DNA from: a virus | Virus record (IMG/VR): IMGVR_UViG_3300027515_000001 | Location: 1-52,703 of that record | Strand: one strand, 5' to 3' | Length of the DNA stretch: 52,703 bases | Shown here: positions 10,593 through 49,066 of the stretch, one piece after another | Position numbering within the stretch: the first letter of the stretch is position 1 | Layout of the letters: the number at the start of each line of letters is the position of its first letter | The notes under the pieces: model-generated | Databases searched by the model: none | Told to the model about the DNA's origin: nothing | What the model saw: only the letters and a program-made list of their open reading frames with translations | Translations under genes and position numbers: made by a program

Positions 10593-11033
10593 TCACGCGC
10601 TGGTGTAATACTTGTGCAAATCGTACAAATCGTAGACAACAAAGCGAGGAGGAGTATCGCCGGTTGAACGAAACGCGGGGATGATCGGGAAAACGGTAAA
10701 ACGCTTGGCGACATGTAAGACGGCGAGCAACGTGCCTTCGGTTAACGAAGGCGGGCGAACAATTACCAATTCGCCGCGCTTCGTTGCCAGACGAGGGATC
10801 AGCAAATCACCCTCCGCAAAATAGTCAATTTCGCAGTCATCGAATGCAGATTTTAACACGTTTTCAGTCTGCTCGAATACCGAACCTTCAAAGTTTACGT
10901 GGTACGGAATACGATTTTCGATAACTTTCGCTGGATTTTGAAACTTTTGTTCCAGCAAATGGGTAATTTGCGCCAATTGCTCGTCGGTCAAGGGGTGCGA
11001 AAAGTTCTTGACGACCGCCTGTAAGAAGCTCAT
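10593..11033 (-). CDS. unknown protein, first gene of leftward operon beside the origin
   Basis: 146 aa, no family recognised. It has a mixed helix/strand pattern with LTDEQLAQITHLLEQKF near the N-terminus and RGELVIVRPPSLTEGTLLAV in the middle. RBS GGGAGGT before ATG. Driven by the promoter at 11131-11158, immediately left of the origin region; a role in origin control is possible but unsupported. Confidence 0.65.
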   Translation of the reverse strand: MSFLQAVVKNFSHPLTDEQLAQITHLLEQKFQNPAKVIENRIPYHVNFEGSVFEQTENVLKSAFDDCEIDYFAEGDLLIPRLATKRGELVIVRPPSLTEGTLLAVLHVAKRFTVFPIIPAFRSTGDTPPRFVVYDLYDLHKYYTSA

Positions 11034-11130
11034 GGTAACCTCCCGTCACACTGTCTGTTGCATATCGAACGATTTGCGTGAACGTCACACCGGTTCACCG
11101 CCAAACCCCGGTGCGTGTCGCTCGACATGA

Positions 11131-11158
11131 AGTATAGCACATGTTGCATATATGCCAA
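11131..11158 (-). promoter_or_regulatory. sigma-70-type promoter for the leftward operon
   Basis: Minus strand: TTGGCA, 16 bp, TATACT, with GTGC before the -10 as at other promoters here (GTGCTATACT). About 100 nt upstream of the gene starting at 11033. Confidence 0.75.
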
Positions 11159-11167
11159 GAGAAGCAG

Positions 11168-11417
11168 TTTACCGCATCAGAACGCGGTAATCACGATTGT
11201 ATGCGAACAAATGTGCGGGATTACCGCGTAACTCGTTCGGCGATCAACGAGTTGCATGAAGAAAAATCAGACAACGAACCCTAGATTGCCTCTGTAGCTT
11301 TACAGGAAGGCCGTAGAGCGACGAAAACCCTCGACCCTATATGATCCCTTATTTCGACTGCAAAACGCTTATAAGCCTTCCTGTGACGTTATAGAGGATT
11401 TTCCACATCGTGGAAAA
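11168..11417. repeat. dispersed structured element, copy D, at the origin
   Basis: Contains TTTACCGCATCAGAACGCG, ACAGGAAGGC (11302-11311) and its inverted copy GCCTTCCTGT (11375-11384) followed by GACGTTAT, all blocks shared with the elements at 16858, 20492 and 35051. It ends with a perfect hairpin, TTTTCCAC-ATC-GTGGAAAA (11399-11417). The copy is diverged relative to the others. Confidence 0.55.
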
Positions 11418-11911
11418 ATATACCGTATCGTGGAAACACTCGGTAAACGAAACGGGCAAGTGCAAGTTCGAGAACAGCCTCGCCGTCACTTCGTGCGATT
11501 GCGCGTCATACGCAACGGTTGCAAGTCGAACGAATTGCGTATACGCACCTTCGTGATTTATCGTGAAATATTTCACAAAGGGGGGTAGGGGGGGGTTTCA
11601 TCGACGCACAGTTTCTAACACCAGCGTAATAGAGCATTATCGAAAATACGCAAGGAGGGGTAATACATGATTTTATAACCACGTTATAGAAAATCTTTTT
11701 AGAAACACTTCGTAATACGTTTCTATACACGTTAAAGAGAATAATTTTAGTAAGATCGCGTAAAGAGATCGTATAATACTATTACGTAATAAGATTATTT
11801 AGTAAGATTATGTAATAAGATTACGTAATAAAATAACATAATAAGATAATTCATAGTATTGTATAATAGTATTATGTAATAATACGTGTTAATAAGTATC
11901 GTAATAATCAG

Positions 11912-12028
11912 AGAGAATAACTTGTAAGAATAATTAGTAAGAATAATTAGTAAGAATAATTAGTAAGAATAATTAGTAAGAATAATTAGTAAGAATAATT
12001 AGAGAGAATAACTAGATAGAATAATAAG
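11912..12028. repeat. 13-mer tandem repeats (DUE-like iterons)
   Basis: Six perfect head-to-tail copies of TAAGAATAATTAG occupy 11925-12002. One degenerate copy lies to the left (AGAGAATAACTTG, 11912-11924) and two to the right (12003-12015 and 12016-12028). The unit equals the 13-mer length of the E. coli oriC unwinding element and contains TAA/GAA/TAG triplets resembling DnaA-trio motifs (that resemblance is inference). Confidence 0.85.
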
Positions 12029-12205
12029 AGGGAAATATTATAAATATATATTATATTAATAAGCGCGTGCGTTCCATTTAATACGCGAAGGTAAACCTTC
12101 GTTTACCGCGTTCTAATCGCGTAAACCTTCGATTTTTCGTCATTCGTCGCGTTTTTCGCGTTGGTTTCACCGTGAGAATATGTCGTGATCGTGCAGGTTT
12201 GTGTT

Positions 12206-12258
12206 TTATTCACACGGTGTCCACACCATACTCACACGTTATCCACAGGTTATCCACA
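12206..12258 (+). promoter_or_regulatory. DnaA-box array in exact 11-bp register
   Basis: Nonamers start at 12206 (TTATTCACA), 12217 (GTGTCCACA), 12228 (ATACTCACA), 12239 (TTATCCACA) and 12250 (TTATCCACA), so every box starts 11 bp after the last. Three fit the consensus TTWTNCACA perfectly; the two between keep the CACA core. Same orientation and one-helical-turn spacing would favour a DnaA filament. Confidence 0.85.
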
Positions 12259-12372
12259 ATCCGATGTTTCGTTTATGTCATCCGGCGATAGCCAAACTGT
12301 TTCGAGTTGAACCATTCTCGCGTCTATGAGAAATCTTGATGTACCGCGTCAATACGCGACATATCGCTATTC

Positions 12373-12400
12373 TTGACAGGGAGAAAACTTGTGCTATACT
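12373..12400 (+). promoter_or_regulatory. sigma-70-type promoter
   Basis: TTGACA (12373-12378), 16 bp, TATACT (12395-12400), preceded by TGTGC. It points away from the origin toward the 114-aa gene at 12534. Confidence 0.85.
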
Positions 12401-12533
12401 ACGCTCAACCGCCAACCAAGTGTCGCTCATTTGTCCGTCCGCTCATTTGACCGCTGGCGTTGCATATATGTCATTTCGTCGCGTTGTTACCGGTTTGCGT
12501 ATATGCAACGCCCACCGTCGTCGTGGAGGAATT

Positions 12534-12878
12534 ATGAACATACCGGCGCAATTGGTCACGTATTGCGCATCTGCATTTGGCATGACCGTCACCGAGACGT
12601 GGCGTGCGTTGCAGGAGATGCGAGAGGGGGAACAGTTCGTTGTCGCCCACGCTGAACGAAAAGGCGCAAAATCTGAATTGAAAGTTACCAAAACTGGTAT
12701 TGGATTTCAGTATAGTTTCAATTTTCATCAAACAAAGTTTACTATTTTTACAAACGAAATTGGAGGAATATACAATCATGATTATTTTGATAATGCGCTA
12801 GATAGCTACTACGAACTTGTTCAGAAGCACAACCTTACTCCGTTGCCAGTCATCGTTCCGTCGTTTTTTCGGCTGTGA
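12534..12878 (+). CDS. unknown protein, first rightward gene after the origin
   Basis: 114 aa. The ATG at 12534 follows GGAGGAATT. No family recognised; the N-terminal part is helical (TVTETWRALQEMREGEQF) and a strand-rich part follows. The strong promoter just upstream and the leading position suggest an early or regulatory role. Confidence 0.65.
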   Translation: MNIPAQLVTYCASAFGMTVTETWRALQEMREGEQFVVAHAERKGAKSELKVTKTGIGFQYSFNFHQTKFTIFTNEIGGIYNHDYFDNALDSYYELVQKHNLTPLPVIVPSFFRL

Positions 12879-28647: not shown

Positions 28648-29568
28648 ATGGACGTGTTTAGCATTGCAACCAGCGGACAGCCGAAGGAAACTAAGCAAAA
28701 GTTGCCATACCATTTAGTATTTTTGTCAATTCCGGTCGAGAGCCAATGCACGTTTCGCATCGTTGGCGACCCAATTGTTATGGTTCGTCGGTGGATCGCG
28801 CAAGACCCGGAAACAAAACAGTGGGTTCCGGTGTGGGGGTATAATCCGAACGACAAGCGGGTTCGTCGCCCGATCATTTTAGCAGTTAAGCGTGGCAACA
28901 AATGGATTGGCGAGCATCGCGACGATCCCATCAGTCGCGTAATTGCACAAATGCAATTGCCTGATGAGGTCAAAGAACAAGCGTTACGTCCCGATTTTCT
29001 AACGTTGTTCCCCGTGTTTGACGTATCGCGGGTAGTGCGTCAGGTTGCGGAGGATGGCTCGGTGACGCTTGTGTATCCAAATGTCAATGGTTCGTTCCCG
29101 CAAGCAATTGCGCGACATGCGGAGCTGCGTAATGAGCCGGCGATTTTGGAGTTTCGCGGAGTGCCGCGAATTCGCGATGGCGTTGCGATTGGAGAAGCCG
29201 CGATTGATAAATTGTATCAGTTGTTCTTGAGCCTCGTTGAAACCGATCCGCTGACCGGCAACGCGCAACAGCTTGACATCACGAACTATTTGTTTGTCAT
29301 GAAACGAGTGCGCGGGGAGGGCGGCAAGCCGTTGACTCACTTCCTCGCGCAGCGTTCGCAATCGTTGCCAGAGATTACATCGTATTATGATCTGACAACG
29401 TGGCCGACACCGGTCAACCACGACGCATTGCAACAGTTGCTTGACGGAACATTGTCATATAGTGACATGTTGTCCGCGAGCAATATTGAGTTGTTGCCGC
29501 GTCTGGTGACGGTTGGGCAGAACGAGCAACACGAGCAGGCGGCGGAAGAAGATCTGTTTGACGATTAA
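28648..29568 (+). CDS. putative ssDNA-binding protein
   Basis: 306 aa. It ends in an acidic tail with a phenylalanine (EQAAEEDLFDD), the hallmark of SSB-type proteins that dock partner enzymes. The N-terminal half is rich in strands, aromatics and Lys/Arg (YHLVFLSIPVESQCTFRIVGD; WGYNPNDKRVRRPIIL). It sits directly before primase and helicase. The fold resembles phage SSBs in general outline only; no certain family match. RBS AAAGGAG. Confidence 0.6.
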   Translation: MDVFSIATSGQPKETKQKLPYHLVFLSIPVESQCTFRIVGDPIVMVRRWIAQDPETKQWVPVWGYNPNDKRVRRPIILAVKRGNKWIGEHRDDPISRVIAQMQLPDEVKEQALRPDFLTLFPVFDVSRVVRQVAEDGSVTLVYPNVNGSFPQAIARHAELRNEPAILEFRGVPRIRDGVAIGEAAIDKLYQLFLSLVETDPLTGNAQQLDITNYLFVMKRVRGEGGKPLTHFLAQRSQSLPEITSYYDLTTWPTPVNHDALQQLLDGTLSYSDMLSASNIELLPRLVTVGQNEQHEQAAEEDLFDD

Positions 29569-29638
29569 GCAATTGGTTCCCGTAGCAAGCAATTGTTGCG
29601 GGAACCTTGTCATCTTATCAAAGGGCAAAGGGTGGCGT

Positions 29639-30553
29639 ATGGCGAAGGGCTACAAAACAACGTGCCCGGAATGTAAGAAAGGTAACTTTTACGTAACGCC
29701 GCACAATGGTTTTGGATATTGTTTTAATTGCGGATTTCGCCAATCGAGCAGTTTTACTCATCAACCTATTGTTGTTTCGCACGAAGAAATTGCTGTTTTT
29801 CGTCAATTATACACCGAACTCGCTGCGTATTATCATAGTTGCCTTGACGAGCAGCATCGAGCGTGGTTGCATCGACGCGGTATTAGCGATGCGATGATCG
29901 AGCAGTTTCAGATCGGTTATGTTCCCGCGTCGTTTCACATTTTGTACAGCAGCGAGTTTGCAGAAAAAGCGGGTATTGCAGTCAATAAACAACCGTTTCT
30001 TGCCAATCGGATCGTATTCCCGTACTTGTTGAACGGAATAGTATACGATTTGCGAGGAAGAAGTATCGCAAATGAGGAACCAAAGTATCTTTCATTGCGC
30101 AATTCTGCAACTTTGCGCGGAGCAACAATTGTGTATAACGCGGATGTCTTAAGAGTAAAACCGAAAACGCTCGTGATTACCGAGGGAGAAATTAAAGCGA
30201 TTGCGTCGCAACAAGCCGACATTGCAACCGTCGCGTTCCCCGGCGTTCGGTCACGCCGCGATCTTCAGGTTTTTTCATCACAGCGTGTTGTTATTTGCTT
30301 CGACAACCAACTGCGCCACTATTACGACGTATATCGCGCTATTGTTGACCTTGCTACTGATTTGTTGCCGTTTACGCAACGTATTTTTGTTGCGCTATTA
30401 CCATTATGGGGCAATAACCGATGGTTTCAGCACGAAAAGATGGATATTGATACGTATATTTTACAATATGGTGAAGAAGCGTACCGAACGATCATCGAAA
30501 CTGCTATTCCGTATTTGCGATTTCTGCAATTAGCGCGAGGGTTTTTATCATGA
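29639..30553 (+). CDS. DNA primase (zinc ribbon plus Toprim)
   Basis: 304 aa. A CPEC...CFNCG zinc ribbon occupies residues 10-35 (CPECKKGNFYVTPHNGFGYCFNCG pattern). A DnaG-like core follows (HRRGISDAMIEQFQIGYVP; LANRIVFPYLLNGIVYDLRGRS). The Toprim motif LVITEGEIKAIA carries the catalytic Glu, and later VVICFDNQ carries the acidic residue. It would make RNA primers for phage replication. The ATG at 29639 is chosen because the zinc ribbon starts there. It overlaps the helicase start by 4 nt. There is no fused helicase domain; the helicase is the next gene. Confidence 0.88.
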   Translation: MAKGYKTTCPECKKGNFYVTPHNGFGYCFNCGFRQSSSFTHQPIVVSHEEIAVFRQLYTELAAYYHSCLDEQHRAWLHRRGISDAMIEQFQIGYVPASFHILYSSEFAEKAGIAVNKQPFLANRIVFPYLLNGIVYDLRGRSIANEEPKYLSLRNSATLRGATIVYNADVLRVKPKTLVITEGEIKAIASQQADIATVAFPGVRSRRDLQVFSSQRVVICFDNQLRHYYDVYRAIVDLATDLLPFTQRIFVALLPLWGNNRWFQHEKMDIDTYILQYGEEAYRTIIETAIPYLRFLQLARGFLS

Positions 30554-31812
30554 TAACTATCGCTGACTATACCAACGCCGCGTTGGAGATGCGTTTGTTG
30601 CTCGCATTGCGCGATCACCAATATCATCACCTTATCCCTGCGCTCGATCCACGTTTGTTTGCAGACGAACGAACGCGGTTGCTGTTTGACGCGATGCGGC
30701 AAAGTTTTGTGTTGTACGGTGATGTGACGGAAGACGGCATTGCTCGGTTTTATCGCGAACCGTTGCCGCAAGAATTGTCGCTACCGGTACAAGTTGACCC
30801 GTTTCCAATCATTGACGAATTATCGCGATTGCAGAAAAAGCGCGCATTATACGAAGTTAGCCAGCATTTTCGTCAACTTTCGGCGGAAACCGACCCCGAT
30901 ATTACGCATCTATTTCACGTGATTGAGCGCGAATTACCGCGAAATGTGCGCTCAATGACGATCCAATCCGGCGTGGATGAGTTTTTGTCACTATTTGAAG
31001 CGCGGCGAACTGGCAATTATCGCTGGTTGCGTACCGGATTGGAGTGGCTCGATCAAATGATCGGCGGGGAATGGCCACGCGGCGAAATCTCGATTGTTTC
31101 AGCGCGATCTGGCGGCGGCAAAACCGCGTTGATTGGCGCTTCGGCGCTGAATATGGCGCGGAACTATCATTTAGATCAATCTGAAGGCGCGCCGGTTGCA
31201 ATTTTCTCATTAGAAATGCCGCGTCCGCAGTTGGTTGCGCGGTTTGTTGCGAACTTGTTAGGAATTGATAGCAGGATCGTTCGAAATGGTATGAATATTG
31301 ACGGATCACCGATTGCACCAGAATTGATTGATCTTATTAAGGCAACAACCGAAGAAATTGCTCAACTGCCGCTGTACATCATCGAGGCCGAAGGGTTTGG
31401 CGCGGATGACATTATCGCAACGGCGCGGGCATTGCATGTTGAGCACAATGTACAGGTGTTCTTCGTGGACTATCTGCAATTGTTAAAATACGAAGGCGAT
31501 AATATGCATTATGGATTAAGTAGCGCGATTAAGCGCATTCGCGATTTTGCAAAACAATACAATGTTGCATTTGTGTTAACCGCGCAAGTTAATGAAACGA
31601 AGGGGACAATCCGCGACAGCACCGATCCCGAAAAAGATGCGGCGCTGTGGTTGCACATTGATATTGATTACGAAAGCCGCGATGAACAAGGCGTTGCGCG
31701 CACGCGGGTGTCGGTCAAGAAAAATCGCCATGGCCCGACTGGTTCGGCAAATGTGCTCTATCATTCGCGCAAACTTGCGTTTTTGGGGATGTCCGAGCAA
31801 TATCACATGTAG
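30550..31812 (+). CDS. dnaB: DnaB-like replicative helicase
   Basis: 420 aa. A short N-terminal helical domain is followed by the SF4 RecA-type core: Walker A SARSGGGKTAL, motif H1a IFSLEMPRPQLVARF, Walker B VFFVDYLQLL, then VLTAQVNETKGTIRDSTDPEKDAAL with the sensor Gln, and SVKKNRHGPTG near the end (Arg finger region). It should unwind DNA as a hexamer at the fork. Shorter than E. coli DnaB (471 aa), mostly in the N-terminal domain. Starts with ATGA overlap on the primase. Confidence 0.93.
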   Translation: MITIADYTNAALEMRLLLALRDHQYHHLIPALDPRLFADERTRLLFDAMRQSFVLYGDVTEDGIARFYREPLPQELSLPVQVDPFPIIDELSRLQKKRALYEVSQHFRQLSAETDPDITHLFHVIERELPRNVRSMTIQSGVDEFLSLFEARRTGNYRWLRTGLEWLDQMIGGEWPRGEISIVSARSGGGKTALIGASALNMARNYHLDQSEGAPVAIFSLEMPRPQLVARFVANLLGIDSRIVRNGMNIDGSPIAPELIDLIKATTEEIAQLPLYIIEAEGFGADDIIATARALHVEHNVQVFFVDYLQLLKYEGDNMHYGLSSAIKRIRDFAKQYNVAFVLTAQVNETKGTIRDSTDPEKDAALWLHIDIDYESRDEQGVARTRVSVKKNRHGPTGSANVLYHSRKLAFLGMSEQYHM

Positions 31813-31817
31813 TGATT

Positions 31818-33071
31818 ATGACAATTATCACGATAAAACGGAGAAAATTAACAAAAAAGCAGAGTGCCACAAAAAAGGCAAACCGCGCAAAGAAGGTGCG
31901 CCGTGTCAATAAAGAAGTGTTGCGGCAGCGAAAACGCGAACAGCGCTTGTTGCAGCGCGAACGCGAAAAAGCGCGAAAAGCGGCGCAGCGGCAGAAGGAA
32001 CGGTTGTGCAAGCAACAAGCAAAATTGCGCAAACAGGAACGAGAGCGACAATTAGCAGAGGCGCGAAAACAACAAACGGAAGTAGTTACGCCGGTTAAAC
32101 TGCCAAGATCGTCGTATCTTGCAAAACGAACGATTACACAACTACACAAATTGTCGCAATTAACCGGGATACCGCCTGAAATTGCGCGATTTTTAGTATC
32201 TCGAACACGCATGGCGGTGAGGTATAAAATGAAAACTGACAGACAGCGGGTTAACCTCAATCAACGGCGCGGGAAACGAGCAGAATACAAAGCGGTTGCG
32301 AACATTCGTTCGTTCGGGTTTTATGCACAACGTGTTCCGCAATCCGGCGCGGGCGGAATGCGCGGAGATGTGTTAGTCACGTTACCGACCCGTGCGGTGT
32401 TGATGATCGAGGTTAAATTCTCCGCGCAATTTACCCAAGGTAACGAGAAATGTATCAGATTGCAGATGGATTGGTTTGAGACGCTCGATGAAAATTATCG
32501 CGCAATGCAGCAATATAACGTGATCGCTGCGTTGTTTTTGTTCAAATACGGGTTCTCGAACGTGTTTTTCGTCGCTATTCCAGCGGAATATTTGAAGAAA
32601 CTCGAAGATCATCTTGGCGTTTCACTCAATGATTACCAGCGACCGGTTATGAACCAACCGTTTTTGGAGAGTTTAGAACCGGTTGATACGAAAGGGAAAT
32701 CGTTAACCGTTCGTGCAACGCGGGCGTTACGCGGGTTGGCGTGTTTTCATACCGACACAAAATATCAAAAAGAACGCACAATCTATTGTTTTGCGGCGGA
32801 ATACTTTTGGGATTGGCTCGAACAAACGCTTAAAACGCAAGATCGCTGGTACGACGGCTCTATTCCAGACCGCGGCCCGCGTGGAAGGCCGCGAAAGAGC
32901 GAGTTCCCACGAGTGTTTTTGCATAAGAAAGGAGTACCACATGAACCGAACGCTGAAACCGCACTCGATGATCTCGCAGACGATCAAGACGACGCCTGCG
33001 AAGAGGATTGGGCAGACGCTGATGGAGCAGATAAAGAATGCGAAGGTGACAGTTGTCAACGCAACGACTGA
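31818..33071 (+). CDS. Hjc-like PD-(D/E)XK nuclease with basic N-terminus and acidic tail
   Basis: 417 aa from ATG 31818. Residues 1-90 are an extremely basic coiled coil (RRVNKEVLRQRKREQRLLQR). The middle matches archaeal Holliday-junction resolvase Hjc: RGKRAEYKAVANIRSFGFYAQRVPQSG, then RGDVLV and VLMIEVKFS, giving the E...D...ExK active site. The last ~40 residues are strongly acidic (DDLADDQDDACEEDW), and this part overlaps polA by 131 nt in another frame. It could resolve recombination or replication junctions before packaging. Confidence 0.75.
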   Translation: MTIITIKRRKLTKKQSATKKANRAKKVRRVNKEVLRQRKREQRLLQREREKARKAAQRQKERLCKQQAKLRKQERERQLAEARKQQTEVVTPVKLPRSSYLAKRTITQLHKLSQLTGIPPEIARFLVSRTRMAVRYKMKTDRQRVNLNQRRGKRAEYKAVANIRSFGFYAQRVPQSGAGGMRGDVLVTLPTRAVLMIEVKFSAQFTQGNEKCIRLQMDWFETLDENYRAMQQYNVIAALFLFKYGFSNVFFVAIPAEYLKKLEDHLGVSLNDYQRPVMNQPFLESLEPVDTKGKSLTVRATRALRGLACFHTDTKYQKERTIYCFAAEYFWDWLEQTLKTQDRWYDGSIPDRGPRGRPRKSEFPRVFLHKKGVPHEPNAETALDDLADDQDDACEEDWADADGADKECEGDSCQRND

Positions 33072-35028
33072 TTTAGTAACCGTTTCGGTTGAAGGCGATA
33101 TTGTGTCGGTTGACCTAGAGACATCAGGGTTAGACTGGCAGCGCAACGAAGTGTTGCTCATCTCGATTGCGGATAGCTCGCAAACATCAATCGTGCTTGA
33201 TGTTTCGTCGGTCAATCCGCACGAATTGCGGGCGTGGTTACATCGAAACCTGTTTGGCCGATTGATTGTTGGTCATAATTTGAGTTTTGATCTTAAATTT
33301 TTGACGCGGGTGTATGATTTTGATCTTCGATCTTGCGCGTATTATGACACGATGCTCGCGGAAATTGTATTATTCGCCGGACTCGATTACGGCAATTCGT
33401 TGAAAGAAATCGTTGCGCGTCGTATCGGATTAGAACTTGACAAAACGATCCGCGCCGATTTTACCGCGTTCGGTCGAACCTTGACGATGACCGATACGCA
33501 TTATCGTTATGCGTCACTCGATGCGCTAACGACGCTGGCGGTGCGAGAATTGCAGCTCGTTGATCTCAGAACAAATGAGCTAGAGCAGATCGCGGAATTA
33601 GAAATGCGCTTGTTGCCGGTCGTGGTTGAGATGGAACTCGGCGGCGTTCCGTTCGATTGGCAACGATTTGAAACATTTGTTTCAGTGTTACATGAAAAAC
33701 GAACACTCGCTGAGCGGCTAATGCAAGAAGCGCTGCAACCGGCGGCGTTGAGGATCGCGGAGCACCAATCACGGCATACGCCGCAACTATTTGTTGTTCC
33801 GCAAACAATTAACATTAATAGCAAGCCGGTATGCAAAGATGGCGTCTGGAACTACAGGCAATTGTGGCCGGTGCTGCAACAGTACGGGATCGAAATTGTT
33901 GACAAAGACGGTAATCCGTCACTCTCGGCAAAAGATATGCAACGGTGGGACGCGGCGCATACGGTTGATGCCGCTATCCCGCCGGAAGCTGAAGCATTGT
34001 TGCAATCATATAGACAGTATCGTAACCCGTTGTTAAACCTCTATGCATATACAATTGCGATCCATAAACTCGATGATAGTTTTGGCAAGACGCTCAGGGA
34101 AATGTACCACAATGGCCGGTTGTACCCATGGTTTAAGCAGTTAGGCGCGAAAAGTACGGGGCGGTTTAGCAGCAATTTGCAACAGTTACCGAAAGACGAA
34201 AAAATCAAACCGCTTGGTCTTCCATCCTTGCGGCAATGTATCGCGGCGGAACCGGATCATTCGCTCGTAATCGCAGATTTCGCCGGTATCGAGTTAGTCA
34301 TTCTGGCGGATATGTCGGGTGATGAAGTGCTTGGTGATCTCATTGTGCGTTCGGCGCGGGGGGAAGAAGACATTCACTTATACGTTGTTCGGCAGGCATT
34401 TGGCGATCTCCACCCCGAAGCAAAGAATGCAACATTGGACAAGAAGAAAGTTGCGCCGTATTCGTTGTTGCGAAATGCAGCGAAACCAACGAGCTACGGG
34501 ATCGCATACGGCATCACAGGCATGGCGTTAAGCGAGACGATCTCTCAACAATTAGCGCCGCTTGGTGTTACATGCACGCCGGAGCAGGCGCAGCAAATTA
34601 TCGACAACTGGAAGCAAAAGGCATTTAGGAAAGCTGGTGCGTGGCTCGATAAAACGGCGCAGCAGGGGCAACGGTTAGGTTATGTTCGCACAGCGTTAGG
34701 ACGCAAACGCATGTTCGATCTGCGTAATGCGGATCGTAAAGCGTTGTCCGCGATTGGTCGCGAAGCAAGCAATGCGCCAATTCAAGGTACCTGCGCGGAT
34801 ATGTTGAAGTTGGCGATGGTGTACGTTGCGAAAGACCTCGATCCAGCGCGAGCGCGGCTGATCTTGACCGTACACGATGAATTGGTTTTGCACGCAACGA
34901 ATGACTACGCGCAAGAAGCGTCAATGATTTTGAAGCAGAGTATGGAAAAAGCGGCGCGAAAATGCATGCCAAGGATGGGGCAGTACGTTGTGGTCGAGCC
35001 TGCGATCTCATCGTGTTATGACAAGTAA
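32941..35028 (+). CDS. polA: family A DNA polymerase with 3'-5' exonuclease
   Basis: 695 aa. Exonuclease: VSVDLETSG (D58, E60), VGHNLSFDLKFL and YASLDALTTLAV. Polymerase: motif A VIADFAGIELVILADMSGDE, motif B RNAAKPTSYGIAYG and motif C LTVHDELVL. The motif B position equivalent to E. coli Phe762 is Tyr (residue 519), as in T7. There is no 5'-3' exonuclease domain. The ATG at 32941 follows AAGAAAGGAG; the longer open frame upstream is the overlap with the Hjc-like gene. Confidence 0.95.
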   Translation: MNRTLKPHSMISQTIKTTPAKRIGQTLMEQIKNAKVTVVNATTDLVTVSVEGDIVSVDLETSGLDWQRNEVLLISIADSSQTSIVLDVSSVNPHELRAWLHRNLFGRLIVGHNLSFDLKFLTRVYDFDLRSCAYYDTMLAEIVLFAGLDYGNSLKEIVARRIGLELDKTIRADFTAFGRTLTMTDTHYRYASLDALTTLAVRELQLVDLRTNELEQIAELEMRLLPVVVEMELGGVPFDWQRFETFVSVLHEKRTLAERLMQEALQPAALRIAEHQSRHTPQLFVVPQTININSKPVCKDGVWNYRQLWPVLQQYGIEIVDKDGNPSLSAKDMQRWDAAHTVDAAIPPEAEALLQSYRQYRNPLLNLYAYTIAIHKLDDSFGKTLREMYHNGRLYPWFKQLGAKSTGRFSSNLQQLPKDEKIKPLGLPSLRQCIAAEPDHSLVIADFAGIELVILADMSGDEVLGDLIVRSARGEEDIHLYVVRQAFGDLHPEAKNATLDKKKVAPYSLLRNAAKPTSYGIAYGITGMALSETISQQLAPLGVTCTPEQAQQIIDNWKQKAFRKAGAWLDKTAQQGQRLGYVRTALGRKRMFDLRNADRKALSAIGREASNAPIQGTCADMLKLAMVYVAKDLDPARARLILTVHDELVLHATNDYAQEASMILKQSMEKAARKCMPRMGQYVVVEPAISSCYDK

Positions 35029-38469: not shown

Positions 38470-39216
38470 ATGAAACGTCGATCTTTCGAGCAGCGATTTC
38501 GCGACAAACTCGCGGAATACGAACAAGCGTATGATTTGAGTTCAGTTAACAGCGCGAATGACAAAGATAATCTTCGCGCCTTGATCTCAAACGCGCTCAT
38601 TATCGAGGATTTGCACGAAATGTTGCAGGAGATGAGCGACAGTCAATCGCTCGACCCAGCGAACATTGAAAAAACAACGCAACTTATTCAAAAATTGCTT
38701 GCGACTAATCAACAATTAGAGCGGCAGCTCGGAATAGATCGCAAAACGCGACGAGCAAGCGGTTCGGATAGCGTGTCGGAGTACATCGCGTCATTGCAGG
38801 AGGCCGCAAAACAGTTTCTCGATCAACGATTGACGCGGGTTATCTGTCCGAAATGTCACGTAATGGTTGGTCGGTTTGCTCCGGTACACGATCACACACG
38901 ATACGTTGTCGCATTTCAATGTTCGCAATGTCGCGAAATGGTGGCGCTTGAACGCGACGAACGCTCGGTTTGGTTCGACCTAAAGCCGAGGGAATACAGA
39001 TGGCGGAAAAACTATCCGGTTTCGATCCGGCCCGCGAAAGCGCGAAAGATCAATCCAATCTTGACGGGCAACTTAGCAGGCGTCGTGTTGGAAAGCGAGC
39101 TGGAAGAACAAGAACCAGCGACGCCCGCGCAAGAAAGTATCGAAATCGAAGATGCGACCGTCGTTATTAACGATAAAGAAGTAGCAGATCATGGCAATAA
39201 CACAGAAATTAACTGA
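38470..39216 (+). CDS. putative terminase small subunit with zinc ribbon
   Basis: 248 aa. The N-terminal half is helical (FEQRFRDKLAEYEQAYDL; LIQKLLATNQQLERQLGI). The middle has CPKCHVMVGRF and FQCSQCREMVALE, two CxxC pairs forming a zinc ribbon. The C-terminal tail is acidic. It overlaps the large terminase by 26 nt. Position defines it as the probable DNA-recognition subunit; the zinc ribbon is unusual for one, so another packaging accessory is possible. Confidence 0.55.
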   Translation: MKRRSFEQRFRDKLAEYEQAYDLSSVNSANDKDNLRALISNALIIEDLHEMLQEMSDSQSLDPANIEKTTQLIQKLLATNQQLERQLGIDRKTRRASGSDSVSEYIASLQEAAKQFLDQRLTRVICPKCHVMVGRFAPVHDHTRYVVAFQCSQCREMVALERDERSVWFDLKPREYRWRKNYPVSIRPAKARKINPILTGNLAGVVLESELEEQEPATPAQESIEIEDATVVINDKEVADHGNNTEIN

Positions 39217-41806
39217 AAGCGAACTTGCGTTACTTGAAATTCTTGATGATCCGGTATGGTTTGGCGAGTTTTTGCGCAATACGAAAGACGGCCAAACTCA
39301 GCGGCATCTCTGGCCCAAACGCACGTTTTCGTATCGTTGGTATCAGAAAGATTTGTTGACGGATCAATCACCAGCAGTCGCGGTGCGTGGCGGTCGCGCA
39401 ATCGGGAAATGCCAGCCAGCGACTGCACAGGTTTTGACGCCATTTGGTTGGAAAAAAATCGGGCAAATTATTCAAGAGTACGAGCGGCGGCGGGTGCGTA
39501 TTCCCACGAAACCCGTTCCGTTTGAAATCATTGCCGTTACAAAGAATATGAAATTAGTAAACGCGCCAGCGGTAATTTTTTACAACGGGCGCAAACCGGT
39601 GTTTCGCGTGACGACAAAATCAGGGTATAGCATCGAAGCAACAAAAGAACACCCGTTATTGACAAGGCACGGATATATTGCGTTAAGCGAGTTAAAGGTA
39701 GGCGATGAAATCGCGGTTGTTGGTGCTATTCCCGACGGGTTAGTTTATGAACGCGGGTTTACCAAGCCTGATGAATTACGACTATTAGGATATTGGTTTC
39801 TCGAACCTGATGAAAAAGTGATCGGATTGTATCCACGAACAAAGCACGTGCGTGATGATATTGCTCGCATTGCGCAATCGCTCAATATTGATTTTTACGA
39901 GCGATCTGATGGCGCAATTGCACTAATGCGCGGCAAAAAATACTATTGGATGCTCAGCGATGTGTCAAAACGTATGGGAAGAACCTACGGATATTTCGCG
40001 AAACGATTCAATACTGACTATCATTTCTCAGTGCATCAGCAAACAAAGCTACCAAACGAATTGTTCAATGAAAGAAAAGAGCAATTTCGCGCATTTATCG
40101 AAGCGTTGTTTGCGCAATACGCGGATATTTCGCGGAATGTTATCAAAATTGATGTCATCACGGAACTAAATGTTCAAATCTTGCGCCGCATTTTACTGCG
40201 ATTTGGTGTATTTTTTCGCGTCGTCAACACGACAATTATCATTGATGATCCCATCGCACTTTTCCGGTTTTTCAAACAATTTCGCGTGCCGGGCGTTGCG
40301 GTTGCTTCCGTTCTTCCTCCGTTGAATTATACCGACGACTGGTATTTTTTCGATCCCATCGTTAGCATAACTCAACAACCGTCAACGCTTACATATGCTA
40401 TTCAAGTGCACGAGCATCACGTATATTTGTCGGATTTTGTGGTTTCGCATAATTCACTTTTCGTTGAAGATCGTATTTTGTGCGATATTTTTCAGCACGA
40501 AACGCGACTGCCGGACACGAAAGAGGTTCTATTGTTGGCTAATAACGAGGCGCAGGTTGAACCGATCATGAAACGATTGTATGATCGGTTGCGTGCGTCT
40601 CCATTATTGCGCCAATATGTTCACAATATTAATCGTTCCGATGGCGTTTTTGATTTTCGGTTTCCAACGGGCGAACAAGTGCTATTGCGTGTTCGGAGTA
40701 CCGGTATCGGAAATAATCAATTAGTCGGGTTGCATGTTGGCAAAATGTACGTTGACGAGGCGCAATTGTTTTCGGAAGAGAGCTGGCAACAGGCTGCACC
40801 AGCATTAAACGATTGGGAGCAAAGTGCGCAAGTATTTGTCACGGGCGTACCCAACGGTATGCGCAATTCATTATTGTATTTTGCAAGTAAACCATCATCA
40901 GGATTTAAAGAATATCATATTCCGGCCCCGAATAATCCATTTTACACCATCGAACAGGATGAATTGAACAAAAAACGTTATGGAGGGGAACAATCCGATG
41001 CGTATCAACAGTTAGTCTTGGGCAACCACGGCCAAGCGGTGCACGTATTGTTGCATCGCGAACAAATTCAAACGAAACCGATTGACTACACGCCATCGAT
41101 CTACACTGAACGAGAACTAAAAATTGGCGAACCTTTCTATTCCGTGATCGAACGCCCGTCGTTACCGTACCAACTCATCGCGTTTGGTATAGATTGCGGG
41201 TTTGTCGATCCGACCGTTATCATTATCCTTGGCAAAAACACAGATCAACCGTGGCAAATTGCGCATAAAGTGGTTTTGAAACGTGTAGATTTCGACACGC
41301 AAGTAAAAATTATAGATTGGTTGGCGACAAGTTACAAACCAACGCTTATTGCGATTGACACCAGTACCGGCGGGGGCGGGTTGCATATTGTGCATACTCT
41401 GCAACACAACGAGAATTATGATCGCAACTACTACCGCTCCGTCATTCATAGCGTGCAATTTCACGGCAAGATGGGGGTTGGATACGACGCACAGGGCGAA
41501 GAGATCACGGATTACGTCAAGTCTGTGGGTGCAGCGACGCTCGTGCAAATGGTTTCAGATGGAATGATTGTATTCCCAGAAGTTGATCAGGAACTTATTT
41601 CGGAGATTGAACGCATTACGCGGGTTGTTTCACGCGGTGGATCGTCGTCGTATTTCATTCTGTCCGAGCAAGGGCATGGTCAATCGCCGAACGATCACCA
41701 GTTCGCCGCACTAATCTGTTTCGCGGTTGCAATCAAGAGTCAAGCAACGCAACGCATTCGCCGCCGACTTGCGCTGCCGAAGGGATTGCATCAATCGCAC
41801 AAATAG
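39191..41806 (+). CDS. terL: terminase large subunit, interrupted by an intein
   Basis: 871 codons; after removal of a 348-residue intein the mature protein has 523 aa. The ATPase Walker A becomes RGGRAIGK-S across the splice site. Walker B is in GKMYVDEAQ, followed by a coupling motif in VFVTGVPNG. The nuclease domain has FGIDCGFVDPT, LIAIDTSTGGGG and NDHQFAAL acidic residues. It pumps DNA into the prohead and cuts concatemers. Unspliced protein would lack a working P-loop, so splicing is required for packaging. The portal gene follows. Confidence 0.95.
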   Translation: MAITQKLTESELALLEILDDPVWFGEFLRNTKDGQTQRHLWPKRTFSYRWYQKDLLTDQSPAVAVRGGRAIGKCQPATAQVLTPFGWKKIGQIIQEYERRRVRIPTKPVPFEIIAVTKNMKLVNAPAVIFYNGRKPVFRVTTKSGYSIEATKEHPLLTRHGYIALSELKVGDEIAVVGAIPDGLVYERGFTKPDELRLLGYWFLEPDEKVIGLYPRTKHVRDDIARIAQSLNIDFYERSDGAIALMRGKKYYWMLSDVSKRMGRTYGYFAKRFNTDYHFSVHQQTKLPNELFNERKEQFRAFIEALFAQYADISRNVIKIDVITELNVQILRRILLRFGVFFRVVNTTIIIDDPIALFRFFKQFRVPGVAVASVLPPLNYTDDWYFFDPIVSITQQPSTLTYAIQVHEHHVYLSDFVVSHNSLFVEDRILCDIFQHETRLPDTKEVLLLANNEAQVEPIMKRLYDRLRASPLLRQYVHNINRSDGVFDFRFPTGEQVLLRVRSTGIGNNQLVGLHVGKMYVDEAQLFSEESWQQAAPALNDWEQSAQVFVTGVPNGMRNSLLYFASKPSSGFKEYHIPAPNNPFYTIEQDELNKKRYGGEQSDAYQQLVLGNHGQAVHVLLHREQIQTKPIDYTPSIYTERELKIGEPFYSVIERPSLPYQLIAFGIDCGFVDPTVIIILGKNTDQPWQIAHKVVLKRVDFDTQVKIIDWLATSYKPTLIAIDTSTGGGGLHIVHTLQHNENYDRNYYRSVIHSVQFHGKMGVGYDAQGEEITDYVKSVGAATLVQMVSDGMIVFPEVDQELISEIERITRVVSRGGSSSYFILSEQGHGQSPNDHQFAALICFAVAIKSQATQRIRRRLALPKGLHQSHK
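39410..40453 (+). other. intein in the TerL P-loop, with degenerate LAGLIDADG region
   Basis: Starts at Cys (TerL codon 74, TGC at 39410) and ends His-Asn (40448-40453), with Ser as the +1 extein residue. Block A: CQPATAQVLTPFGWKKIGQI. Block B: IEATKEHPLLT with TxxH. Block F/G: YAIQVHEHHVYLSDFVVSHN. The middle (about residues 125-260) has the outline of a LAGLIDADG endonuclease. The two helices read LLGYWFLEPDE and FIEALFAQYAD, so the catalytic GD/DADG residues are gone. The intein is therefore probably still splicing but no longer homing. Confidence 0.93.
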
Positions 41807-45855: not shown

Positions 45856-46524
45856 ATGGTTTTTCAACAGACACCATCGACCACCGGAGAACTCGCGCCG
45901 ATCATCGTCGTGATCGCGGTTGGGAGCGGTGATGGTTGGGAAAAGAGGGGTTTTGAATGTAGAAAAAATAGGTTTTTATGGCTTTCTGACGCGGTAAATC
46001 GCGATTTGCTTTCGCTCCGAACACAAGTTCTACTCGAACATTCGTTCGCCCGCTCGCCCATTCCTGCGCCCGTTCCTGCGCCCGTTCCTGCGCCCGTTCC
46101 TGCGCCCATTCCTGCGCCCGCTTCTACACGCAGCAGCGAAGATAGCGTCGCCGAGCTGGCCGGGCGCGATAGCGCTGGGAATGGGCGCGGCATCGAGGTC
46201 GAGCAACGCAACGAAATCGAGCGCGCTGGCGAAATCGGGCGTGGCGAACAATTGTTCTACGAGCTGAAGCGATTAACATTGAACGCGCCGGTCTACGTTG
46301 TTCCGATCAGCGACCTCCCTTCGTTGCGATGCGAACCGTCGCTGCTCTGTATTGTTGTGCATGAAACGGTTCGATCTACGCTTGATACGTCGCCCCTCCC
46401 TATTCCGCACATGCTGATCGAACACAACGATGCTAGCGAATTACGATTTGTTGCGTTTGTCACAAAACGAAAAGAGAAACGAACGCAAAAGCGAAGAACG
46501 CGAAAGACGGAGGAAGCACGATGA
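45856..46524 (+). CDS. unknown protein with Pro-Ala repeat linker
   Basis: 222 aa. The centre has PAPVPAPVPAPVPAPIPAPA, encoded by a 12-bp tandem repeat (CCTGCGCCCGTT, five copies, about 46057-46121). The C-terminus is very basic (KRKEKRTQKRRTRK). No family recognised. ATG overlaps the GIY-YIG gene at its 3' end (ATGA). Possibly an in-frame repeat that varies in length between strains. Confidence 0.55.
   Translation: MVFQQTPSTTGELAPIIVVIAVGSGDGWEKRGFECRKNRFLWLSDAVNRDLLSLRTQVLLEHSFARSPIPAPVPAPVPAPVPAPIPAPASTRSSEDSVAELAGRDSAGNGRGIEVEQRNEIERAGEIGRGEQLFYELKRLTLNAPVYVVPISDLPSLRCEPSLLCIVVHETVRSTLDTSPLPIPHMLIEHNDASELRFVAFVTKRKEKRTQKRRTRKTEEAR
46057..46121. repeat. 12-bp tandem repeat (Pro-Ala linker)
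   Basis: About five copies of CCTGCGCCCGTT with minor variation (last copies have CCATT/CGCTT). It stays in frame because 12 is a multiple of three and encodes PAPV. Confidence 0.85.
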
Positions 46525-46862
46525 ATACTGAAACGAACGCTGGCATTTACTATCTACGCATTATTACGTCAAGCGGCGATTATTACTACATCGGGCAAAC
46601 ACGGCGATCATTTCAACAGCGTTGGCGCGAACATTTGTGTGGTCTCCGTGCTGGCCAGCACGCGAATACACAATTACAGCAACTCTACCGAGACGGCGCG
46701 GTAATTGTTGCGGGTGTGATTGTTGCATTAAAAAAAACCATCGCGAAACAACGCATCGAGATGGCCGAGCAGCAAGCGATTGCGCTGGCGGAGCGAAGAG
46801 GGTTGCGCGTGGTGAATGTGGTGAGAGAGCGAGAAATGCAAGAGGAGAAAGAAGAGCAATAA
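46521..46862 (+). CDS. GIY-YIG endonuclease domain protein
   Basis: 113 aa. AGIYYLRI...YYYIGQTRRSFQQRWREHLCGLRAG matches the GIY-YIG fold (GIY, YIG, catalytic Arg in RWREH, later Asn in HANTQLQ), and the Glu in the helix EMAEQQAI could be the metal ligand. The stand-alone domain is of the kind used by homing or mobile endonucleases and repair nucleases. No intron or target is apparent nearby. Starts within the stop of the upstream gene. Confidence 0.85.
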   Translation: MNTETNAGIYYLRIITSSGDYYYIGQTRRSFQQRWREHLCGLRAGQHANTQLQQLYRDGAVIVAGVIVALKKTIAKQRIEMAEQQAIALAERRGLRVVNVVREREMQEEKEEQ

Positions 46863-48977: not shown

Positions 48978-49066
48978 AGAGAGGGAGAGGGAGAGGGAGA
49001 GGGAGAGGGAGAGGGAGAGGGAGAGGTGGAGGGGTAGGAAAAGAGGGAGGAGGAGAGGGAGAGGGG
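48978..49066. repeat. homopurine (GGGAGA)n tract
   Basis: About eight GGGAGA units give an uninterrupted purine run at 48978-49026, and purine-rich sequence continues to 49066 with two T interruptions. It lies in the 375-bp gap 48851-49225, where apparent ORFs on both strands (Glu-Arg or Ser-Pro runs) are only translations of the repeat. No other gene is seen there. Confidence 0.9.

Follow-up and report, generated by a model that had tools for sequence, protein, structure and literature searches.

How does a phage that encodes its own polymerase, helicase and primase begin to copy its genome when no initiator is recognised among its genes? To our knowledge, how replication starts is unknown for most sequenced phages, and it is common to assume that a phage with a replisome of its own also supplies the initiator. 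The question arises for the phage in the IMG/VR record IMGVR_UViG_3300027515_000001, which was analysed over its whole length of 52,703 nt (the window). The ends of the record carry an exact 127-bp terminal repeat, so that the record appears to be complete, with a unit of 52,576 bp. Its primase, helicase and polymerase genes are as follows.

29513-30553, plus strand: DNA primase (phrog_47, 2.3e-26; PF08275)
30550-31812, plus strand: DnaB-like replicative helicase, C-terminal domain (phrog_19, 2.8e-52; PF03796, 1.3e-35)
32713-35028, plus strand: family A DNA polymerase (PolA) with 3'-5' exonuclease (phrog_17, 3.7e-86; PF00476, 4e-54)

The profile scan reported no DnaB_N domain in the helicase. 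Further genes encode a class II ribonucleotide reductase, dUTPase, Dam-like methylase, thymidylate synthase, UvsX-like recombinase, exonuclease, terminase, portal and amidase. Pfam and PHROGs scans of the tested ORFs recognised no initiator and no family of the Rep, O or TrfA type, and a search for domain IV of DnaA (DNA-binding), which was positive in 10 control bacteria, found none in the record. This is an absence of recognition and not proof: ORFs without an assigned function are numerous, and the phage possibly encodes an initiator of its own. Searches of the record for tRNAs and for Rfam families yielded no hits. Elsewhere in the genome, the large terminase gene (39191-41806) is split by an intein (PF14890); the protein encoded at 45856-46524 contains a proline-alanine (PAPVPAPV) repeat that stems from 12-bp tandem repeats at 46055-46120, and its gene is followed by that of a GIY-YIG endonuclease (46521-46862); and 14 tandem copies of the GAGAGG hexamer occupy 48979-49065, near the convergent end of the rightward gene block.

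The candidate origin lies between a leftward gene (10593-11033) and a rightward gene (12534-12878), and the whole module fits in the gap that separates them.

11034-12533, no strand: 1.5-kb non-coding divergent region with the whole module (ORF list)
11131-11158, minus strand: leftward sigma-70-like promoter TTGGCA-16-TATACT, its second hexamer preceded by TG (consensus scan)
11399-11407, plus strand: solitary DnaA-box-like sequence TTTTCCACA, within the inverted repeat TTTTCCACAtcgTGGAAA (sequence)
11580-11595, plus strand: two G-runs, 6 and 8 long (sequence)
11751-11881, plus strand: degenerate, AT-rich 13/26-bp repeats of the ATTACGTAATAAG type (TRF)
11903-12025, plus strand: 13-mer iteron array, 9.5 copies of AATAATTAGTAAG (TRF: period 13, 89% match)
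12033-12062, no strand: probable duplex unwinding element, DUE (nearest-neighbour stability scan)
12090-12107, no strand: perfect inverted repeat GGTAAAC-cttc-GTTTACC (sequence, repeat list)
12206-12214, plus strand: DnaA box 1, TTATTCACA, perfect (sequence, consensus score)
12217-12225, plus strand: DnaA box 2, GTGTCCACA, weak, 6/8 (sequence, consensus score)
12228-12236, plus strand: DnaA box 3, ATACTCACA, weak, 6/8 (sequence, consensus score)
12239-12247, plus strand: DnaA box 4, TTATCCACA, perfect (sequence, consensus score)
12250-12258, plus strand: DnaA box 5, TTATCCACA, perfect (sequence, consensus score)
12373-12400, plus strand: rightward sigma-70-like promoter TTGACA-16-TATACT, extended -10, 11/12 match (consensus scan)

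The preliminary description reported five nonamers starting at 12206, 12217, 12228, 12239 and 12250, all in one orientation and in exact 11-bp register, three of them perfect matches to TTWTNCACA and the other two retaining CACA, and the sequence agrees in every respect. The linkers between the boxes are, in order, CG, CC, CG and GG. The mismatches cluster in the TTAT half of the box, and CACA is intact in all five. Scored against the consensus TTATNCACA, with 8 positions per box, the array reaches 36 out of 40, compared with a maximum of 27 on both strands of 200 whole-genome dinucleotide shuffles; three strict boxes within 60 bp were found in none of 300 shuffles. The whole genome contains five perfect TTATNCACA sites, and three of these are boxes 1, 4 and 5. 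The locus thus has the above-chance cluster of DnaA boxes that is expected of an oriC-like origin.

To the left (5') of the boxes, an AT-rich stretch (80% AT) extends from 11690 to 12064, beginning roughly at the position, 11690, from which the feature was originally delimited. The 13-mer iterons that had been noticed in it are present as six exact copies in the rotation TAAGAATAATTAG (11925-12002, counted by eye), or five in the rotation AATAATTAGTAAG, within a total of 9.5, and poorer repeats continue leftward to 11751; the lag-13 autocorrelation over 11660-12070 is 0.63. The complementary, T-rich strand of the array contains one TTATT per repeat. These repeats had been described as lying beside the boxes; they do share a region with them, but a distance of 180 bp lies between the end of the last 13-mer (12025) and the start of the first box (12206). 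The genome has no other pure-AT run of at least 20 than 12033-12062, which is also its least stable 30-bp segment; among 100-bp segments, the least stable begins at 11961. With these two minima, the boxes have an adjacent, easily melted AT-rich DUE as in an oriC-like origin, at about 145-180 bp from box 1. The inverted repeat at 12090-12107 has related GGTAAAC/GTTTACC copies at 11167, 11440 and ~12118, and, judging from their sequence, these repeats are a possible candidate site for a phage protein. The rightward promoter is 115 bp beyond the last box; sigma-70-like sites as a class, to which the one at 11131-11158 belongs, are not above the shuffled expectation.

The plain cumulative GC skew has its minimum at 5.9 kb (-377), only 37 counts deeper than at 11.0 kb (-340), and after circular detrending the minimum falls at 11.45-11.55 kb (11450-11552), inside the 11034-12533 gap. 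Because the skew here follows the gene strand, a strand-plus-replichore model was fitted per gene, in which the GC skew at third codon positions (GC3) is the sum of a strand effect and a replichore effect and which is blind to the boxes. When both origin and terminus were free, the best origin was at ~10 kb, with termini at 34-45 kb (p=0.015), and placing the origin at 12.2 kb gave p=0.005, both by a permutation that ignores the correlation between adjacent genes. AT3 skew carries no origin signal. Given the neighbour correlation and the flat AT3 skew, the support that the GC3 model lends to an origin near the boxes is moderate. The skew, proposed in the preliminary description as a check, does not place the origin elsewhere: the replichore switch is where an oriC-like origin would have it (detrended minimum at 11.45-11.55 kb, GC3 origin at ~10 kb), with the caveat of the linear minimum at 5.9 kb.

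A second proposed check was the conservation of the register in related phages. No relative that covers the origin region was found by polymerase, amidase, other protein or DNA searches. Polymerase matches of 93-100% (L241-L243) are on contigs that end short of the origin, and the 98% match of an 899-aa protein is on one of these same contigs. Scans with a 316-aa protein and with near-origin proteins yielded no relative; the amidase scan gave two distant matches, with no five-box array in their examined stretches; no polymerase relative was detected in GTDB genomes, and no similar DNA in named phages. The register could be assessed in phages at large, by looking for three strict boxes separated by free gaps of 0-14 bp. 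Among the matches listed, adjacent strict boxes have a spacing of 11 bp in 144 pairs and of 12 bp in 82, with 1-6 pairs each at 9, 10, 13 and 14 bp, a second rise at 21-22 bp, that is, two turns, and a preference for GG and AG linkers. The spacing of 11/12 bp dominates among these matches, so that other phages keep the register, and both of the refuting conditions named in the preliminary description turned out in favour of its reading.

For strict four-box arrays with 11-bp spacing, the viral contigs gave 58 stretches, and 84,980 genomes of bacteria and archaea gave 51. A query for five boxes hit 65 phage records out of 50,697, but 6 plasmid records out of 72,556. One of the arrays (L116) contains the same weak box as box 3 of the phage (ATACTCACA). 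DnaA was found in none of the 62 array-bearing viral records searched (0/62); the arrays are therefore not simply host oriC contamination. Our search of open-access papers turned up no survey of phages for phased DnaA arrays. The array query also matches records of tiny ssDNA phages, Microviridae and bajarodmic viruses (H31, H36, H46-H48 and H62). Plasmid pSOE2 (3.8 kb) of the symbiont Candidatus Pantoea edessiphila (L319) carries a nine-box 11-bp DnaA array. Four bacterial contigs (L315, L321, L331 and L350, three of them TM6/Dependentiae/Babeliales) have paired four-box 11-bp arrays that face opposite ways, ~145-155 bp apart, in mirror image.

Do such arrays mark origins? We surveyed 40 other array-bearing viral records that share no k-mer sequence. 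The ORF-based two-factor skew was too noisy on these records because their gene calls are crude, and it was replaced by the raw detrended skew, with other gaps as controls. In 21 of the 40 records, the array is no further than 5% of the record length from the detrended skew minimum, compared with 4 expected (P=2e-11); the survey includes related records and many fragments, so that the counts overstate independence and the P values are optimistic. Broken down by set, the fractions are 12/16 in the first and then 5/13 and 4/11. Among control gaps (first two sets plus the phage record), 12% of all other intergenic gaps and 24% of divergent gaps lie that close to the skew minimum. Divergent transcription is not the whole cause, because arrays in tandem or convergent gaps (G015, G038, G047 and G055) are at skew minima as well. 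Within 600 bp of an array, the weakest 100 bp ranks in the top 0.5% of its record in 70% of cases, versus 16% for random places (P=5e-11).

PolA is carried by nine of the 40 array-bearing records, and in eight of these nine the array is at the skew minimum, compared with 13 of the 31 others (p=0.015); six of the nine belong to one phage family (48-67% PolA identity), and the IMG/VR phage is far from all of them. The preliminary description called such a locus unusual in a phage that carries its own polymerase, a view that these counts do not bear out. Not all arrays conform: those of P483 (T7-like) and Bo-Finn are off the skew minimum, so some phage arrays apparently do something else, for example, bind away host DnaA. 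T7-like phages have their own origins. Multi-box DnaA arrays are present in the T7-like phages phiEap-1 (Enterobacter, L248), P483 (Escherichia, L246) and VB_Ship_A7 (Shigella, H34), in each case in the non-coding DNA at the left end, which precedes the early genes, and these left-end arrays are possibly a DnaA sink.

The viral arrays also have a polarity. The AT-rich side is 5' of the TTATNCACA array in 57 viral cases versus 25 with the opposite arrangement (p=3e-4), and the IMG/VR phage has it on the same side; bacterial arrays from the same search show no preference (18 versus 23). A C-rich tract is located within 80 bp 5' of the array in 23% of the viral arrays, compared with 2% of the bacterial ones and 2% of random places. 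Tracts of the CCCCCTCCCCCG type directly precede the boxes in L116, G006, G023, G029, G038, G054 and G064. The IMG/VR phage has no C-rich tract directly 5' of its boxes; its G-runs at 11580-11595, two of the three G/C runs of at least six in the genome, are possibly the counterpart, yet they are on the far, left-hand side of the AT-rich DNA. L161, in which six 13-mers (ATCTTAGTCTTAG) directly precede a 12-bp array, comes nearest to the layout of the phage. The geometry of the basal unwinding system (BUS) of chromosomes was considered and rejected, given that the array faces away from the AT-rich side and has no trios: inspection of the 3' flank of the boxes, ATCCGATGTTTCG, revealed no run of DnaA-trios. 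In the survey, a strict trio pattern, which may be insensitive, gave one match among 104 viral arrays and none among 61 bacterial ones.

We see about an even chance that phages of several lineages, some with their own polymerase, helicase and primase, share a distinct type of origin that lacks its own initiator and depends on host DnaA, in which an AT-rich DUE is followed by a one-direction array with 11/12-bp spacing that points away from it. In this proposed type, the DUE would sometimes contain 13-mers, and a C-rich tract would often intervene between the DUE and the boxes; the reversed polarity and the C-tract would set it apart from the bacterial arrays found by the same search.

For the IMG/VR phage itself, the 11.0-12.5 kb region is probably the replication origin, a compact, oriC-like one that is opened by host DnaA and used by the phage replisome. 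Anatomy, statistics and position all point to an origin, at which DnaA would bind, open the DNA and enable helicase loading, with forks departing in both directions. The compact oriC of the preliminary description is accordingly supported in its anatomy, its position in the skew and its recurrence in other phages; DnaA binding and origin activity are what we infer from these, and the likeness does not extend to the chromosomal BUS.

The same description took the helical phasing as a sign of DnaA filament nucleation, and this is plausible by analogy with Thermotoga maritima, where same-direction boxes with a 2-bp gap give maximal co-binding of ATP-DnaA in vitro (PMC10316083). Boxes in both half-regions of Escherichia coli oriC are 2-4 bp apart (PMC5742627), and with 2-bp gaps being optimal for ATP-DnaA, the 11-bp register would be what a head-to-tail DnaA oligomer needs. 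Under this scheme, host DnaA-ATP would bind boxes 1, 4 and 5, and the weak boxes 2 and 3 would be filled cooperatively through head-to-tail contacts that the 2-bp gaps allow, giving a short filament. With the DUE ~145-180 bp away on the other side of the boxes, opening would need a loop, presumably formed by the ~180 bp between the boxes and the 13-mers. The filament could then capture the T-rich strand of the 13-mers, with its TTATT in each repeat, melting 12033-12062 together with the 13-mers; E. coli DnaA holds a TTATT-type motif when it is single-stranded (legend of Fig. 1, PMC10316083). The phage helicase and primase would load at the melted DNA, possibly after host DnaB/DnaC; as the helicase has no recognised DnaB N-terminal domain, direct loading by DnaA is uncertain. 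PolA forks would run both ways and meet in a broad zone at ~34-45 kb.

An unlikely alternative is a mixed iteron origin of the RK2/P1 type, with an unrecognised phage protein acting as the initiator on the 13-mers or the GGTAAAC repeats and DnaA assisting. Tandem iterons and DnaA boxes (9.5 13-mers, five boxes) do occur together as in an iteron-plasmid origin, at least nine 13-mers sharing one region with the GGTAAAC/GTTTACC repeats; RK2 oriV likewise combines four 13-mers and four DnaA boxes with TrfA iterons (PMC4980987), and unannotated ORFs in which an initiator might be encoded are numerous. However, no cognate Rep gene and no O-type initiator was recognised by Pfam or PHROGs among the scanned ORFs, and the 13-mers coincide with the weakest DNA, as the 13-mers of a DUE do, and do not look like double-strand binding sites.

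We consider it very unlikely that the array is a datA-like decoy that binds or inactivates host DnaA and so blocks host initiation, with replication beginning elsewhere. Here, as in datA, the boxes have the same direction and suit head-to-tail DnaA (PMC5742627), and the left-end arrays of T7-like phages, with that of P483 off the skew minimum, give precedent. Still, five boxes are few against the ~300 consensus boxes in E. coli (PMC5742627), the weakest duplex and the 13-mers lie beside them at the skew minimum, and the arrays of PolA-bearing phages are at the skew minimum in 8/9 cases. About as unlikely is that DnaA, which is known to regulate transcription (PMC8203912), serves here to control the strong rightward promoter at 12373 (and its leftward counterpart at 11158). 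Promoter-like sites do diverge at both ends of the region, but the boxes stop 115 bp short of the -35 hexamer, the 13-mers, DUE and skew are left without a role, and G015, G038, G047 and G055 have their arrays at minima in tandem or convergent gaps. Finally, TRF also calls the box array as an 11-bp tandem repeat (69%), but chance or a simple-repeat artefact has a negligible probability, being already refuted by shuffles that never approached 36/40, with mismatches confined mostly to the TTAT half, CACA in 5/5 boxes and the same kind of array recurring in unrelated phages.

If the reading as a host-DnaA-dependent origin is correct, the origins of many uncultured phages could be read from sequence, host DnaA would be a host factor for phages that otherwise seem self-sufficient, and a control of infection by DnaA levels or by the cell-cycle state could be tested. 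With its reversed polarity, the locus is also a test of whether opening by DnaA is confined to the side to which the boxes point.

Among known systems, the oriC of E. coli and Bacillus subtilis shares with the phage locus a one-direction cluster of TTATNCACA boxes with 2-bp gaps (2-4 bp in the right half of E. coli oriC, PMC5742627), an AT-rich DUE with 13-mers and TTATT in the T-rich strand, and a position at the skew minimum. Unlike a chromosomal oriC, the phage locus has no dnaA nearby, its boxes point away from the AT side and its DUE is ~145-180 bp off; and whereas the chromosomal BUS depends on trios no more than 16 bp from a box (PMC8287927), the phage has none at that distance. RK2 oriV and P1 oriR are likewise mobile replicons with a DnaA-box cluster and an AT-rich DUE with 13-mers, four in RK2 (PMC4980987); unlike them, the phage has no recognised Rep or TrfA and no separate proven iterons, and encodes its own PolA, helicase and primase. 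An AT-rich origin with DnaA boxes was assigned by Ori-Finder in Pseudomonas phage vB_PseuGesM_254, which also has PolA and primase genes (PMC11512268); in the accessible part of that source, this is a software call for one phage, with no test of phasing, skew or recurrence shown. The E. coli datA site has same-direction boxes for head-to-tail DnaA as well (PMC5742627), but it is a titration and hydrolysis site, at which an IHF site between the boxes is expected and the hydrolysis of DnaA-ATP is stimulated. In tma-oriC of T. maritima, there are also five boxes with same-direction 2-bp gaps (PMC10316083). Its DUE adjoins box 1, whereas in the phage a gap with inverted repeats lies between the two and all five boxes have one direction. 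The tma-oriC opens by capture of the single-stranded DUE (PMC10316083), which is the route that we propose for the phage.
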